A DNA stretch of 64,000 bases from Plantibacter sp. PA-3-X8 (GTDB lineage Bacteria > Actinomycetota > Actinomycetes > Actinomycetales > Microbacteriaceae): NCBI RefSeq assembly GCF_003856975.1, contig NZ_CP033107.1:682001-746000 (forward strand), in the 5' to 3' direction. Below, piece after piece: positions 12,359-60,634 of the stretch; the stretch's first letter is position 1, and every line of letters begins with the position of its first letter. A program made the position numbers and the translations under genes. The notes beneath the pieces were generated by a model. That model was given only the letters and a program-made list of their open reading frames with translations. It had not been told where the DNA came from and did no database searches.

Positions 12359-13432
12359 TCAGTACCTCACCCTCGGGTCGATGATCGCCGCGATGATGTC
12401 GACGATGAAGTTGGTCAGGGCGACGATGACGGCCAGCAGCGCGACGATCCCCTGGACGGCGACGAAGTCACGCGCCTTCAGGTACTCGCTCAGCATGAAG
12501 CCGAGGCCCTTCCATTCGAACGTCGTCTCGGTGAGGACCGCGCCCGCGAGGAGGAGCGCGATCTGCAGGCCGATGACCGTGATGATCGGGATGAGCGCCG
12601 GACGATAGGCGTGCTTCGTCACGAGCCGGAACTCGCTGACGCCGCGCGACCGGGCCGCGTCGACGTAGCCGGAACCGAGCGTGCCGATGACGTTGGTGCG
12701 GACCAGCCGCAGGAACACGCCCGCCGTCAGCAGGCCGAGGGCGATCGCCGGGAGCACCGCGTGGGCGAGGACGTCGCTGATCGCCGTCGGGTCGCCGAGG
12801 CGGATCGCGTCGATCAGGTAGATGCCGGACGGGTTGGAGATGGTCTGGAGGGTCAGCTCGGTGCCGGTGCTGGCTCGACCGGCGACCGGGAGGATCCCGA
12901 GCCAGACGGAGAAGACGAGCTTGAGCAGCAGGCCGGCGAAGAACACCGGGGTGGCGTAGCTGAGGATGGCGAAGACGCGGAGGCCCGCGTCCTGCCAGCG
13001 GTCGCGGCGGGCCGCGGCGAGCATGCCGAGCGGGATGCCGACGATGAACGCGACGATGAGGGCGTAGATCGCGAGTTCGAGGGTCGCGGAGCCGTACGTG
13101 AGGAGGACCTCGATGACCGGCCGGTTGTCGGAGATCGTCGTGCCGAAGTTGCCGACGGCGATCTGCCCGAGGAACTCGAAGTACTGGACGAAGAGCGGCC
13201 GGTCGTAGCCGGCGGCGCTGATGCGTTCCGCGAGCTGATCGGCCGGGAGGCGGCCTCCGAGCGCCGCGGTGATCGGGTCACCGGTCAGGCGCATCAGGAA
13301 GAAGACCATGGTGACGAGGATGAACACCGTCGGGATGATCAGCAGGAAGCGGATGACGAGGTACCGCCAGAGTCCGCCACCTCCGGAACGTCTGGCCGCC
13401 TTGGGGGGTGGGGTTGCGACAGCTGCCGTCAT
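12359..13432 (-). CDS. Peptide ABC transporter permease, DppB type
   Basis: A 357-residue permease with the first transmembrane segment at about 26-48 (YLVIRFLLIIPTVFILVTMV) followed by the DppB periplasmic domain. The EAA loop is around DAARSRGVSEFRLVTKH, and the C-terminus is the family-typical IIAAIIDPRVRY. The start at 13432 is chosen because CGAGGAGGA stands about 9 nt upstream; an in-frame extension to 13504 lacks this support and covers the intergenic hairpin. It pairs with the DppC-type subunit. Confidence 0.92.
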   Translation of the reverse strand: MTAAVATPPPKAARRSGGGGLWRYLVIRFLLIIPTVFILVTMVFFLMRLTGDPITAALGGRLPADQLAERISAAGYDRPLFVQYFEFLGQIAVGNFGTTISDNRPVIEVLLTYGSATLELAIYALIVAFIVGIPLGMLAAARRDRWQDAGLRVFAILSYATPVFFAGLLLKLVFSVWLGILPVAGRASTGTELTLQTISNPSGIYLIDAIRLGDPTAISDVLAHAVLPAIALGLLTAGVFLRLVRTNVIGTLGSGYVDAARSRGVSEFRLVTKHAYRPALIPIITVIGLQIALLLAGAVLTETTFEWKGLGFMLSEYLKARDFVAVQGIVALLAVIVALTNFIVDIIAAIIDPRVRY

Positions 13433-32498: not shown

Positions 32499-33998
32499 GT
32501 GAGTCAGCCCGACGCGCCCATGCGCACCGCCGTCCGCCCGAGCCCCGGCGTCATCGCGACCCTGCGGAACCCCAGGGCTTTCAGTGTCGAGATCCTCGCC
32601 GGGATCGTGACGACGCTGGCGCTCATCCCCGAGGTCATCTCCTTCTCGATCATCGCCGGCGTCGACCCGAAGGTCAGCCTTATCGCCTCCGTCGTCCTCG
32701 CGATCTCGATGTCGATCCTCGGCGGGCGCCCGGCGATGATCACGGCCGCCGCGGGAGCCGTCGCCCTGGTCGTCGCGCCGCTCGTCAAGGATCACGGCGT
32801 GGAGTACCTGCTCCCCGCGGTGATCCTCGCGGGCCTCATCCAGATCGTGTTCGGCGTGACCGGTCTCTCCCGACTCATGCGGTTCATCCCCCGCTCGGTG
32901 ATGATCGGCTTCGTCAACGCGCTCGGCATCCTCATCTTCGTCGCCCAGGTCCCCCACCTGCTCGGCGTCCCGTGGCTCGTCTACCCGCTGTTCGTCATCA
33001 CGGTGCTGATCGTCCTGCTGCTCCCCAAGCTCACCACCGCGGTGCCGGCGCCGCTCGTCGCCATCGTCGTCGTCACCGCGATCACGATGATCGCGCACGC
33101 CGCCGTGCCGACCGTCGGCGACCAGGGCGACGTCTCCGGCGGCCTCCCCGGGCTGACCGCGCTGCTCGTGCCGCTGAACCTCGAGACGCTCGGCATCATC
33201 TGGCCGACCGCGCTGAGCGTCGCGTTCGTGGGGCTCATGGAGACCCTCCTCACGGCGAAACTCGTCGACGACATCACCGACACGACGTCGTCGAAGGGGC
33301 GCGAGTCGTGGGCACTCGGCGTCGCCAACATCCTGGCCGGTTGGTACGGCGGGATCGCCGGCTGCGCGATGATCGGTCAGACGGTCGTGAACGTCAAACT
33401 GGGCCGCGCTCGGACGAGGATCTCCACCTTCATCGCCGGCGTCTTCCTCCTGCTGCTCGTGACCGCGCTCAGCCCGGTGATGGCGCAGATCCCGATGGTC
33501 GCGCTGGCCGCCGTGATGATGATCGTCGCCATCAAGACCGTCGACTGGCACAGCGTGCGCCCGTCGACCCTGCGACGGATGCCGATCCCCGAGACGGTCG
33601 TGATGGTGGTGACCGTCGCGGTGGTCGTCATCACCCACAATCTCGCGATCGGCGTCGCTGCAGGAGCCGTCCTCGCGATGGTGCTCTTCGCGCGGCGCGT
33701 GGCCCACGTGATCCGCGTCCGCCGGGTCCTCGCGGACGACGCCGCCTCCGTCCGCTACAGCGTCATCGGCCCCCTGTTCTTCGGCAGCAGCAACGACCTG
33801 GTCGAACAGTTCGACTACGCGGCCGATCCCGCGGACGTCGTCGTCGACTTCACCGCCTCGCAGATCTGGGACGCCTCGAGCGTCGCCGTCCTCGATGCTG
33901 TGCAGGAGAAGTACGCCGCGCACGGCAAGGAGGTCGTGTTCACCGGACTCGACGAACGCAGCTCGGCCTTCCACGGGAAGCTCACCGGCCACCTCTGA
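32499..33998 (+). CDS. SulP family anion transporter with STAS domain
   Basis: A 499-residue permease with about 10-12 membrane helices from residue 30 to 400. It has the SulP signature LALIPEVISFSIIAGVDP, GGRPAMITAAAGAVALVVAP and GIAGCAMIGQTVVNVKLG. A STAS domain fills about 415-495 (VIGPLFFGSSNDL, WDASSVAVLD). The family carries sulfate, bicarbonate, dicarboxylates or other anions. GTG start at 32499; TAGGCT stands exactly 6 nt upstream and no ribosome site is visible, so the message is probably leaderless. Confidence 0.92.
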   Translation: MSQPDAPMRTAVRPSPGVIATLRNPRAFSVEILAGIVTTLALIPEVISFSIIAGVDPKVSLIASVVLAISMSILGGRPAMITAAAGAVALVVAPLVKDHGVEYLLPAVILAGLIQIVFGVTGLSRLMRFIPRSVMIGFVNALGILIFVAQVPHLLGVPWLVYPLFVITVLIVLLLPKLTTAVPAPLVAIVVVTAITMIAHAAVPTVGDQGDVSGGLPGLTALLVPLNLETLGIIWPTALSVAFVGLMETLLTAKLVDDITDTTSSKGRESWALGVANILAGWYGGIAGCAMIGQTVVNVKLGRARTRISTFIAGVFLLLLVTALSPVMAQIPMVALAAVMMIVAIKTVDWHSVRPSTLRRMPIPETVVMVVTVAVVVITHNLAIGVAAGAVLAMVLFARRVAHVIRVRRVLADDAASVRYSVIGPLFFGSSNDLVEQFDYAADPADVVVDFTASQIWDASSVAVLDAVQEKYAAHGKEVVFTGLDERSSAFHGKLTGHL

Positions 33999-56918: not shown

Positions 56919-58001
56919 TCAGCGGACGGGCGGACCCTGCTGGCCGAACGGCAGACTCGTGTCGGTGACGCCGTCGATGAAGGCGTCCATGCGCTGGAGG
57001 TTGAACCGGCCCTGGTCGTTGAGCAGGAACTGGTACTCGTGCTCGAGCCCCGGTCGGAAGTCCGGGTTGAAGATCATCGATTGCACGTCGACACCGAGGC
57101 CCTGGAGCTTCGCCTTGAACTCGACCGACTGCGGGTAGAGCGGATCCCAGTTGCCGACCGTGATGTACGTCGGTGGATACTTCGCCGTCAGATAGTCGAC
57201 GACGGACGCGGACGCCACCTCCGGTCGGGTCTTGTAGTCGCGCGCTCCGAAGTACGACCAGAGCACCGTGTCGAGGAACCACCCGAAGCTGCCCTCGGCG
57301 TTGACCAGGCTGAGGTCGTAGGCCCCGCAGGCGAGGACCACCCCGGCGAGCTGCTCCGGTTCGATCGGCGATTCGACCTTGATGGAGCTGGCGTACTCGG
57401 AACTCGTGACCACGTTCGCGACCTGGGCGGCGATCTGGGCACCGGCGGAGTCACCGGCGAGGATGAGCTTGGACGAATCCACGTTGAGCGCGCGAGCGTT
57501 GGCGTCGAGGTAGCCGAGCGAGTCGGCGACTTGCTCGATGGGCAACGGGTACTGGCCCTCTGGCGCGATCGTGTACTCGACCGCGATCGCCGTGTACCCC
57601 TCGCCGGCCAGCACGCGCATGTAGTTGGAGATGAGTTCCTTGCTGCCGGAGATCCACGCTCCACCGTGCACCCACACGATCGTCGGGAGGGCGGCACCGC
57701 TGCCGCGCACCCCGTCGGGCGTGTAGACGTCGAGCAGCGCGTCCGCGTCGCCGGAGCGGTACGGGATGTCCTGTCGGACGTCGACACCGTCTGGGACGTA
57801 CTTCACGAGGTCGGATTGCACGACCTTCGCCCGCTCGTCGAAGGCCATGCGGATGACCATCGAGCCCGGCCACGGGGTCAGCTGCAACCAGACGAAGATC
57901 ACCAGCGCGATGGCGAGGATCACGCCGATGATCCAGAACATCGTGTTGCGGACGACACGCAGGAAGCGCGCGAAGCCCGAGCGAGGGGGTGCTGTCCTCA
58001 A
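56919..58001 (-). CDS. Membrane-anchored alpha/beta hydrolase (HSL/carboxylesterase type)
   Basis: A 360-residue esterase-like protein. One membrane helix near 20-45 (FWIIGVILAIALVIFVWLQL) anchors it. The oxyanion motif is HGGAW, the nucleophile is in GDSAGAQ, and the Asp and His lie in NWDPLYP and GLEHEYQF. Start is a TTG at 58001 with a full AGGAGG 8 nt upstream; longer frames lack this. It likely hydrolyses short-chain esters or lipids outside the membrane. It converges on the DUF3320-like gene and is divergent from the CsbD gene. Confidence 0.87.
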   Translation of the reverse strand: MRTAPPRSGFARFLRVVRNTMFWIIGVILAIALVIFVWLQLTPWPGSMVIRMAFDERAKVVQSDLVKYVPDGVDVRQDIPYRSGDADALLDVYTPDGVRGSGAALPTIVWVHGGAWISGSKELISNYMRVLAGEGYTAIAVEYTIAPEGQYPLPIEQVADSLGYLDANARALNVDSSKLILAGDSAGAQIAAQVANVVTSSEYASSIKVESPIEPEQLAGVVLACGAYDLSLVNAEGSFGWFLDTVLWSYFGARDYKTRPEVASASVVDYLTAKYPPTYITVGNWDPLYPQSVEFKAKLQGLGVDVQSMIFNPDFRPGLEHEYQFLLNDQGRFNLQRMDAFIDGVTDTSLPFGQQGPPVR

Positions 58002-58195
58002 GCGATTCACCTCCTGGCGGGTCTGGACGGCGGCGCTGCCTGGCGGAACACGAACCTCCAGTCTCGCATTCGATCGCACTCCGCCGGCGCCCGGGAAGTT
58101 TTTCGACGGATTCCGTGACGAATGCCCGCCGAGCTGCGTCTTACCCGATGACCGGACATCATCACCGGTTTCCAACGCAGACGAAGGAGAACGCC

Positions 58196-58369
58196 ATGAG
58201 TGCATCGGACAAGATCCAGAACGCCGCTGAGGACCTCGCGGGCAAGGCGAAGGAAGCTCTGGGCAAGGTCACCGGCGACGACAGCAAGGTCGCAGAGGGC
58301 AAGGCCGACCAGACGAAGGCCGACGCCAAGAAGGCCGGCGAGAATGTCAAGGACGCGTTCAAGCACTAG
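58196..58369 (+). CDS. CsbD family stress protein
   Basis: A 57-residue hydrophilic protein of the CsbD/YjbJ family: SDKIQNAAEDLAGKAKEALG is the family core, followed by Lys/Ala/Asp-rich helix. Members rise during general stress and their molecular role is unclear. ATG at 58196 has GAAGGAG 6 nt upstream. A terminator follows, so it can be expressed on its own; the next gene is another stress-type membrane protein. Confidence 0.9.
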   Translation: MSASDKIQNAAEDLAGKAKEALGKVTGDDSKVAEGKADQTKADAKKAGENVKDAFKH

Positions 58370-58388
58370 TCCTCGCGATACAGTGGCT

Positions 58389-58410
58389 GCCCCCGCCCAC
58401 CGGCGGGGGC
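58389..58410. terminator. Hairpin after the CsbD gene
   Basis: GCCCCCGCC (58389-58397) pairs with GGCGGGGGC (58402-58410) over a 4-base loop. Confidence 0.7.
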
Positions 58411-58465
58411 GGTAACACGGTCGACCGGCACCCCGTTCGATCCAGTAATCACATTTGGAGACATC

Positions 58466-58729
58466 ATGAGTTTTCTCGGCTTCCTGCTGCTCGGCCTCAT
58501 CGCCGGCGCCCTCGCCAAGGCAATCCTTCCGGGCCGTCAGGGCGGCGGCTGGTTGATCACGCTGCTGCTCGGCGTCGTCGGAGCACTGCTCGGCGGCTGG
58601 CTCGGCGGCATCCTCTTCGGCGCGAACCTGCAGGAGTTCTTCTCGCTGCAGACGTGGCTCCTCGCCATCGGCGGATCGATCGTCGTGCTGCTCATCTACG
58701 GCGCACTGACCCGCAACAAGAAGGCGTAA
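58466..58729 (+). CDS. GlsB/YeaQ/YmgE family small membrane protein
   Basis: An 87-residue protein with three helices: FLGFLLLGLIAGALAKAILP, GGWLITLLLGVVGALLGGWL and LLAIGGSIVVLLIYG. The PGRQGGGW turn is the hallmark of the so-called transglycosylase-associated family, which is often stress induced. TTGGAG before the ATG supports the start. It lies between terminators beside the CsbD gene and an 18-residue peptide gene. Confidence 0.92.
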   Translation: MSFLGFLLLGLIAGALAKAILPGRQGGGWLITLLLGVVGALLGGWLGGILFGANLQEFFSLQTWLLAIGGSIVVLLIYGALTRNKKA

Positions 58730-58750
58730 GCGCCTCCACACAGCACTCGG

Positions 58751-58779
58751 ACGCCCGGCCCCTCCAAGGGGCCGGGCGT
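58751..58779. terminator. Strong GC-rich hairpin terminator
   Basis: ACGCCCGGCCCCT (58751-58763) pairs perfectly with AGGGGCCGGGCGT (58767-58779) after the GlsB/YeaQ gene. Confidence 0.85.
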
Positions 58780-58872
58780 TCGTGCGTGCTGGACGACAAC
58801 GCCGACAGCACGGTGTCCGCCGTTCCGGGGACTGTGCGACCTCCTGTGCTCTGCCAGGATGACTGATGTCCG

Positions 58873-58889
58873 ATATCAGCATCTGATAT
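58873..58889. promoter_or_regulatory. Perfect palindrome upstream of the 18-residue peptide gene
   Basis: ATATCAG-CAT-CTGATAT is a perfect 7-bp inverted repeat with a 3-base spacer, 17 bases before the start codon of the tiny gene and only 3-4 bases before its ribosome site. It is AT-rich in a very GC-rich region, so it may be an operator overlapping the promoter or an RNA hairpin near the ribosome site. Confidence 0.55.
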
Positions 58890-58905
58890 GAGAGGAGGGG
58901 GTCTC

Positions 58906-58962
58906 ATGGACTTCTACCGGAAGCTGCTCGAGCTGCTCCGCGCGATCTGCGGCTGGGTCTGA
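58906..58962 (+). CDS. 18-residue amphipathic peptide gene (too short for normal gene finding)
   Basis: ATG at 58906 opens an 18-codon frame reading MDFYRKLLELLRAICGWV. It is preceded by a very strong ribosome site (AGAGGAGGGGG) at about 5 nt and followed within 10 bases by its own terminator. As a helix, Phe3, Leu7, Leu10, Leu11, Ile14, Trp17 and Val18 fall on one face, with Asp, Arg, Lys and Glu opposite; one Cys is at position 15. Size and pattern resemble membrane-active or signal peptides, but I know no homologue. Function is unknown; the unit looks designed for expression. Confidence 0.55.
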   Translation: MDFYRKLLELLRAICGWV

Positions 58963-58971
58963 CCCGCACGG

Positions 58972-59005
58972 ACGAACGCCCGGTCCACCAGGACCGGGCG
59001 TTCGT
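58972..59005. terminator. Terminator of the 18-residue peptide gene
   Basis: ACGAACGCCCGGTCC (58972-58986) and GGACCGGGCGTTCGT (58991-59005) form a perfect 15-bp stem with a 4-base loop. It also serves the convergent DJ-1/PfpI gene. Confidence 0.85.
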
Positions 59006-59025
59006 GCGTCGCGTTGCGACCGGAG

Positions 59026-59577
59026 TCAGGCGTGCTGGCCCTCGTGCTCGCCTTCGCCGATCTCCTCGACGAGCTTCGCATTGAAGGCCGGGAGGTCGTC
59101 GGGCGTCCGGCTCGACACGAGTCCCTGGTCGACGACGACCTCCTCGTCGACCCAGGATGCACCCGCGTTGCGCAGATCCGTCTTGAGGCTCGGGTAGCTC
59201 GTGAGTTCGCGGCCGCGGACGACGTCCGCCTCGATGAGGATCCACGCGCCGTGGCAGATCACCCCGACCGGCTTGCCTTGCTCGAAGAACGCCTTCGCGA
59301 AGGCGACCGAGGTCTCGTCCACGCGGAGGTCGTCCGCATTGACGACGCCGCCTGGCAGCACGAGTGCGTGGTAGTCGTCGGAGGAGGCCTCGGCGACCGC
59401 GACGTCGACGGGCTGGACGTGTCCATTCTTCCCGGTCACGTCCTGGGTGGCGGGCGACACCAGTCGGGCGGTCGCTCCGGCTCCGGTGACCGCCTCCCAG
59501 GGGCTCGTCAGTTCACTGTCCTCGTAGCCGTCCGTGAGCAGGAAGGCCACCTGCTTGCCGTTGAGTGCTGCGCTCAT
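59026..59577 (-). CDS. DJ-1/PfpI family protein (YhbO/general stress type)
   Basis: A 183-residue class I glutamine amidotransferase-like protein. The nucleophile elbow is GVICHGAW with the reactive Cys, an early Glu lies in DGYEDSEL, and VLPGGVVNADDLR is the PfpI-type strand. Members act as glyoxalases, deglycases or stress chaperones. TTGGAG precedes the ATG at 59577. It ends the stress-type group that includes CsbD and GlsB. Confidence 0.92.
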   Translation of the reverse strand: MSAALNGKQVAFLLTDGYEDSELTSPWEAVTGAGATARLVSPATQDVTGKNGHVQPVDVAVAEASSDDYHALVLPGGVVNADDLRVDETSVAFAKAFFEQGKPVGVICHGAWILIEADVVRGRELTSYPSLKTDLRNAGASWVDEEVVVDQGLVSSRTPDDLPAFNAKLVEEIGEGEHEGQHA

Positions 59578-59686
59578 CGTCGCTCCAATCCGTCAGCGTC
59601 GAGGCACCGTCCGGCGCCTCGCCAGCGACGATACGCTCGGCTCCACCTCTCGGACCCGAGCTTCCGCCGAACGCGAACGGGGTTGC

Positions 59687-60634
59687 TCAGGCGTCGCAGG
59701 CGATGCCGTCGCCGTCCCGGTCGAGGTCGTAGACGTCGCTCCCGACGACGTACACCGGGCCGGGCGTGTACGCCGGCCCGTTGCCGCTTCCGCCGGCGCA
59801 GTCGACGTCGCTCGCGACCGGAACGCACTGCCCCTCGTAGTTCGGGTCGCACCCTCCGCCGGCCGGATCGGCGACGGGAGCGGGAGGCGGCGGAGCGGGT
59901 TGCCGCGTCCCGACGGACGTCACCTGCGCGACCGGTTGGACCGACACGAGCTGCGCGACGAGCTCTCGAGTGATCTCGACCCCGGCTCGCGTGGTGACGC
60001 GGTAGGTGTTCGTCTGCTGTCCGGGGACGCCCGTGGTCGTCACGACGACTTGGCCGACGTCGACGTTCGGGTCTTGAACCTCGGTCACAGCGAACGGGAT
60101 CTCCACGACCTCCGTCACCTCGGTGACGACGTCGGTCGGGGTGGGGGACGGCGTGGCACTCGGCTTGGCGACGGACGTCCCCTCCGGAGCCGACAGCAGT
60201 GCCGCGGGCCGGCTCCCGACCGGGTGGATGGCCGCATTGGCGCTCCCGCCCACGACGAACACGCACAGGGCCGCTCCGATCACCGCGGCCGCGATCCCGC
60301 GGTTGCGGATCCCGAGGGAGGAGACGCGACCACGGACGAGCGCGACCACGCCGATCACCACGGCCACCAGGGCGACGAGTGCGACCATCGCCCAGAACGC
60401 GCCACCGACGGCGCTGACGAGCAACAGCGCTCCGACGAGGCTGAGCAGGACGATGTGGAGCGGACCGAGGCGGCGCGTACGCGTGGCCCCGGCAGCTGCA
60501 GCTGCAGCAGGGACGGTGGCCGGGGGAGCGGGCACGGCCGTCGGCACGCGTTGCCCACCCCAGCCGACTCCGGTCCACCATCGTTGCTGGCCGGGCTGCT
60601 CAGGATCGGGATACCAGCCCGCGGGAGACGTCAT
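59687..60634 (-). CDS. DUF2510 - membrane helices - G5 - Excalibur protein
   Basis: A 315-residue envelope protein with four parts: an N-terminal DUF2510 (AGWYPDPEQPGQQRWWTG), two or three membrane helices at about 58-130 (IVLLSLVGALLLVSAVGG and following), a G5 domain at about 175-235 (VPGQQTNTYRVTTRAGVEIT) and a C-terminal Excalibur calcium-binding motif (DLDRDGDGIACDA). G5 domains bind cell-wall sugars. A role at the cell wall is likely. ATG at 60634 begins the DUF2510 domain; an in-frame ATG at 60667 is an alternative. Confidence 0.85.
   Translation of the reverse strand: MTSPAGWYPDPEQPGQQRWWTGVGWGGQRVPTAVPAPPATVPAAAAAAGATRTRRLGPLHIVLLSLVGALLLVSAVGGAFWAMVALVALVAVVIGVVALVRGRVSSLGIRNRGIAAAVIGAALCVFVVGGSANAAIHPVGSRPAALLSAPEGTSVAKPSATPSPTPTDVVTEVTEVVEIPFAVTEVQDPNVDVGQVVVTTTGVPGQQTNTYRVTTRAGVEITRELVAQLVSVQPVAQVTSVGTRQPAPPPPAPVADPAGGGCDPNYEGQCVPVASDVDCAGGSGNGPAYTPGPVYVVGSDVYDLDRDGDGIACDA

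Follow-up and report, generated by a model that had tools for sequence, protein, structure and literature searches.

Phenol-soluble modulins and peptides of the delta-toxin type are short amphipathic helices made without a signal peptide, and SpoVM represents a further type, a short amphipathic peptide of the membrane surface. IbsC, from the Ibs/Sib system of E. coli, has 19 amino acids, and 15 residues of which at least 10 are hydrophobic suffice for toxicity, according to an excerpt of one account (PMC8309996). Mycobacterial cysteine-rich leader ORFs, as portrayed in an excerpt of another (PMC4633059), precede other genes on a shared mRNA and contain several Cys codons. Here, we describe an 18-codon frame which, judging from sequence comparison, is probably a real and easily overlooked small gene in one Plantibacter clade.

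The frame, MDFYRKLLELLRAICGWV, runs from ATG to TGA at positions 58906-58962 on the plus strand of the window, by which we mean the whole 64-kb stretch of DNA analysed (G000:C1:682001-746000, from one 4.08-Mb contig). Direct reading confirmed what the first-pass annotation had reported, namely 18 codons with one Cys and a TGA ending at 58962, and the frame was present in 5/7 Plantibacter genomes (G000-G006, each a different species), which made up our genus comparison. Upstream of it lies a gene for a GlsB-like (Transgly_assoc) membrane protein of 87 amino acids (58466-58729, plus strand; Pfam PF04226; 7/7 genus genomes), itself preceded by CsbD (58196-58369; Pfam). Downstream, a convergent gene on the minus strand encodes a DJ-1/PfpI family protein of 183 amino acids (59026-59577; Pfam PF01965), whose closest matches among named records are those of Plantibacter flavus VKM Ac-2504 (99% identity) and Plantibacter sp. 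VKM Ac-2880 (96%). The Pfam assignments of these neighbours, CsbD, Transgly_assoc and DJ-1_PfpI, bear out the earlier description of a stress-type cluster.

The ribosome site, previously called very strong, consists of a Shine-Dalgarno AGGAGG at 58893-58898 with a 7-nt spacer to the ATG at 58906. The motif was retained in G001, G003 and G005, and G006 has a weaker version (AAGGGAAG). However, the site taken alone is not beyond chance, because AGGAGG-N4-9-ATG occurs three times in the 64-kb window (both strands), and 30 first-order Markov sequences had 1.5 such sites on average and 5 at most. The site at 13113 is antisense within an ABC-permease-like frame, so named from a reading of its translation. 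Another, at 33238 on the minus strand, stands at the start of an 85-codon frame. An in-frame ATG at 58888, upstream of the one at 58906, would give a 24-amino-acid form. By reading, it is in frame in four carriers, but a 1-nt gap puts it out of frame in G006, and for this reason we prefer the inner start at 58906. The ATG at 58888 is a possible start in G003, whose inner start is TTG.

The seven genomes form two clades by sequence identity in the 19.5 kb surrounding the locus, aligned parts only. Clade A (G000, G001, G003, G005 and G006) has a mutual identity of 94.4-96.1%, clade B (G002 and G004) one of 94.9%, and the two clades are 85.1-86.1% identical to each other. The frame is found between the GlsB-like and DJ-1/PfpI genes in 5/5 members of clade A and 0/2 of clade B. 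All carriers share its place, its 18-codon length and its stop, none of the five has an indel inside it, and the start is ATG in four of them and TTG in G003. The stop-to-stop spacer between the GlsB and DJ-1 genes measures 74 and 82 bases in clade B versus 287-297 bases in clade A, and in G002 and G004 it is filled by a single strong hairpin. The frame may have been gained in clade A or lost in clade B. Among the best 80 of 566 DJ-1 relatives, taken across genera, a GlsB or CsbD match accompanies only the two Plantibacter loci on the examined stretch, so the locus has no outgroup. This distribution also lends no support to the proposal that the peptide regulates its membrane-protein neighbour: G002 and G004 have GlsB at 98% identity without the peptide, and the link between the two is positional only.

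The evidence for coding comes from the four close carriers, G000, G001, G003 and G005. Codons 2-18 have undergone five inferred changes, four of them synonymous: a single Leu codon accounts for two, a second Leu codon for the third, and the fourth, at an Arg codon, is common to G001 and G003 and counted once. The single nonsynonymous change, Val to Phe, affects the last codon in G005, and the ATG-to-TTG start change of G003 was excluded from the five. Against a neutral expectation of 25-30%, at least 4/5 synonymous changes has a probability of 0.015-0.031. In addition, fewer sites differ from G000 in the frame than upstream of it: 2/57 versus 14/111 in G001 (one-sided Fisher P 0.046), 2/57 versus 16/111 in G005 (P 0.023) and 3/57 versus 35/110 in G003 (P 0.0 to four decimals). 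The synonymous excess and the slower change of the frame favour translation, within the limits of four carriers and five changes, and we consider it likely that the frame is translated.

The codon comparison, encouraging among these four species, gave a different result in G006. The frame of this genome keeps its exact length, start and stop, with four gapped columns upstream and five in the hairpin region, but 17/57 sites differ from G000, distributed 5/5/7 over the codon positions, and upstream noncoding sequence differs at 35/107 sites (P 0.42). This divergence looks neutral, with no sign of amino-acid constraint. Among the stop-free runs of a neutral simulation, at least 9/17 residues were retained in 18%, at least 10/11 hydrophobic positions in 6%, at least 8/10 strictly hydrophobic positions in 23% and at least 4/5 polar positions in 55%, and a mean hydrophobicity at or above that of the G006 peptide was reached in 26%. 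The core L7 L8 L10 L11 I14 C15 G16 survived in 0.19% of neutral runs, although this core was picked afterwards and is not a fair test. Rapid change is normal in the upstream spacer, since G003 is as divergent there as G006.

These results bear on the alternative that the locus produces a non-coding small RNA or simply a spacer transcript. The frame would then be incidental, and the conserved unit, reaching from ribosome site to hairpin, would act as RNA or only insulate GlsB from DJ-1. The hairpin behind the frame (58972-59005, arms 58972-58986 and 58991-59005) forms 15 pairs without interruption around a loop of 4 nt, and its region is as conserved as the frame, with 0/48 differences from G000 in G001 and 2/48 in each of G005 and G003, as would also be expected of a unit that acts only as RNA. 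The frame of G006, which diverges at the rate of its noncoding flank, fits such a unit as well. Against it stand the predominance of synonymous changes, the strong ribosome site and the uninterrupted frames of all five carriers, and no Rfam family reached its gathering score; seven matches of E 0.05-0.8 over 58740-59040 were far below those scores. We regard an RNA or spacer as rather unlikely. The pattern named beforehand as refuting the peptide gene, a hairpin and palindrome kept and a frame lost, is the opposite of what the relatives show.

The hairpin was earlier described as a perfect 15-bp terminator. Its 15 pairs are present, but no T-tract, and scanning 58000-60000 for terminators by their T-runs gave none, so that the word terminator is an interpretation. 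Given this lack of a T-tract and the 20 bases between its end and the stop of the DJ-1 gene on the opposite strand, the hairpin is probably common to the peptide unit and this convergent gene. G006 also has a strong hairpin behind the frame, with changed arms. A 13-bp hairpin of similar sequence lies behind the GlsB-like gene (58751-58779); the two hairpins have most of their sequence in common, and short matches to the one at 58972-59005 recur elsewhere in Plantibacter genomes. Repeated terminator hairpins of this kind could be sites of cassette gain or loss.

Upstream of the frame lies a perfect palindrome, ATATCAG-CAT-CTGATAT (58873-58889). As a string it exceeds chance expectation, the average in shuffles being 0.00 matches with up to two mismatches. 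Among the five carriers it is perfect in G000 and G005 and has one mismatched pair in G001; it was sought in G003 and G006 and is not there, G003 folding a different hairpin at this position. Its absence from these two genomes rules it out as a conserved operator. A conserved 5' hairpin was likewise rejected: G000, G001, G003 and G005 each have some hairpin 5' of the frame, with no one common form, and the one in G006 is weak (-5.7 kcal/mol). The first-pass annotation had seen in this locus a complete miniature gene with its own control elements, the palindrome among them. The gene itself holds up, in that relatives keep the frame in 5/5 clade-A species, but the AT-rich palindrome, although perfect where it was reported, is no conserved element, and a role for it as a control element of the unit is not supported.

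A better candidate for the control region is the conserved block at 58815-58860, which we infer from conservation to be the best promoter/operator candidate. At its start lies an inverted repeat, GTCCGC-N6-GGGGAC (58815-58832), a candidate operator that is recognisable as GTCCGC-N6-GSGGACTGT in 5/5 carriers and pairs, by reading, at 6/6 positions in G006 and 5/6 in the other four. It is followed by a putative plus-strand promoter (58832-58860) composed of CTGTGC (58832-58837), 17 nt and CAGGAT (58855-58860); the second hexamer is CAGGAT in three carriers, CAGAAT in G005 and CAAGAT in G003. With two mismatches allowed, the block has three matches in the window versus 1.2 expected, a number reached by 13/100 shuffles, and its own site is the only exact match there. 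A sigma-70 consensus promoter scan, which suits high-GC genomes poorly, found none in 58000-60000.

With regard to the peptide, the Eisenberg moment of the MDFYRKLLELLRAICGWV helix is 0.59, which 0.6% of shuffled versions of the peptide attain, in agreement with the amphipathic helix that had been proposed. By reading, 12/18 residues are hydrophobic, and there are five charges. The Cys is retained in 5/5 carriers. The G006 peptide shares M1 D2 R5 L7 L8 L10 L11 I14 C15 G16 with that of G000, differs at 8/18 residues and has an ordinary moment, matched by 14% of shuffles.

This size and hydrophobic content come near to those of IbsC, and several such toxins contain a Cys (PMC8309996, excerpt), as would suit a type I toxin-like membrane peptide whose overproduction would depolarise the cell and which a putative antisense RNA would hold in check. 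Nonetheless, the five charges and the amphipathic pattern are unlike a plain transmembrane stretch, and a consensus scan of both strands, weak in a high-GC genome, shows no opposing promoter. Moreover, a 98-base DNA query of the seven genus genomes gave no second full-length copy among the matches listed, which included many weak partial ones (E 0.002 and above). A toxin of this kind is improbable. We do not claim membership in the type I toxin-antitoxin systems, because no antisense RNA was seen, and toxicity stays a prediction.

The divergence of the G006 copy suggests a different alternative, an exported signal or antimicrobial peptide that exists in distinct allele types, the G006 type having been gained by exchange through conserved flanks. 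In 60-base bins compared with G000, the frame and hairpin of G006 have 74% and 69% identity inside flanks of about 95%, whereas the other three carriers have 85-100%; the G006 bins at 58680 and 59040 return to 98% and 93%, and over the aligned parts of the 19.5 kb G006 is 94.5-95.6% identical to the other four. However, the upstream region of G003 is as divergent as that of G006, so what distinguishes G006 is confined to its frame and hairpin, four species have nearly one allele, and the four neighbours tested by Pfam include no exporter, processing enzyme, receptor or immunity gene. We consider such an exported peptide very improbable. A bolder form, to which we give very little credence, would be a membrane system private to the genus and made of a single peptide, with allele types exchanged among Plantibacter strains by way of conserved flanks; its fixed features would be the length of 18 residues, the leucine core and Ile-Cys-Gly, and the rest would diversify. 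If true, the allele-type pattern would be as expected for a self-recognising signal or an antagonistic peptide. The G006 copy may be either a weakly constrained frame that drifted or a divergent copy received through the conserved flanks.

Finally, an attenuator leader peptide, to which a short frame followed by a strong hairpin would correspond, is extremely unlikely, because the next gene, DJ-1, is convergent and leaves no regulated gene downstream on the same mRNA, and the frame has one Cys and no run of regulatory codons.

Searches beyond the locus gave no confident homolog outside Plantibacter, although an 18-residue query is poorly sensitive and absence elsewhere is not proven. The G000 peptide matched 5/299 family genomes at E up to 1, namely four carriers (its own genome included) and one chance match, L042 (E 0.78), which lies in an unrelated frame and was rejected. 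The G006 peptide matched 2/299, G006 itself and, weakly, G333 (E 0.35), where the match lies within a 219-codon open frame. A model built from three peptides (A3) recovered all five carriers, with E 2.4e-12 to 4.1e-9; its best non-carrier had E 0.0237 in 398 family genomes, 48 of which had any match at E up to 1, and E 0.0211 in 396 order genomes, 60 of which had any match, the two samples overlapping and both being drawn from larger groups. The places matched outside the genus were mostly partial and within longer frames. We inspected eleven of these loci as translations, four of them also as DNA, and took all of them as chance. At L146, a frame of 159 codons overlies a 25-residue open stretch in which the match has no in-frame ATG, GTG or TTG ahead of it. 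Frames of 266, 515 and 230 codons run across L144, L147 and L154, respectively. At L144 (G028), around position 1500, a 133-codon open stretch contains 10 matches to the peptide pattern, with the 266-codon frame on the opposite strand.

Phages and plasmids gave no match at the DNA or protein level, and viral contigs no exact 24-base match; an origin from a phage or plasmid was rejected on the DNA and protein result. The 24-amino-acid in-frame form matched no family in NCBIfam, PHROGs or Pfam, whose models rarely cover 18-amino-acid peptides, and among solved structures two designed helical proteins were matched (E 0.46 and 0.59). In the portion of the P. flavus literature covered by titles and the beginnings of abstracts, no entry concerned a small peptide.

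Taken together, we propose a lineage-restricted small gene for an amphipathic peptide of the membrane surface, a reading to which we assign about even weight. In our model, the Plantibacter flavus group carries a small monocistronic gene with a short mRNA of approximately 58865-59005, on which the strong ribosome site would direct synthesis of an 18-residue peptide without a signal sequence. On contact with the membrane of its own cell, the peptide would form an amphipathic helix rich in Leu and lie along the inner face, and the conserved Cys could permit disulfide pairing into a dimer or a redox response. Transcription and translation, like membrane binding and any role in stress, are what we infer from these features, and function at the membrane surface is the more tentative part, which we would put slightly below an even chance.

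If translated, the frame would add a bacterial gene of very small size, expressed independently and supported by comparison, that one clade carries and its sister clade lacks at an otherwise intact locus. As such, it would provide a clean case in which to follow the origin or loss of tiny membrane peptides. Units of a ribosome site, a short frame and a hairpin between convergent genes would also merit a scan across Actinobacteria.

Compared with the systems described above, the proposed peptide resembles the SpoVM type as a short amphipathic helix with a possible place on the inner face of the membrane; Plantibacter is, to our knowledge, not a spore former. The phenol-soluble modulins come from a different phylum, and the Plantibacter frame has no dedicated exporter among the tested neighbours. 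With the mycobacterial cysteine-rich leader ORFs it shares being a very short actinobacterial ORF of the kind that gene finders miss, but it differs in having one Cys and no downstream gene on its strand. By working mode, IbsC-like very small membrane peptides would be the nearest analogues, with no sequence relation claimed. MDFYRKLLELLRAICGWV is like the Ibs peptides in its length, its hydrophobic content and its predicted helix at the membrane, and unlike them in being amphipathic with five charged residues, whereas Ibs/Sib pairs its peptide with an antisense antitoxin RNA.
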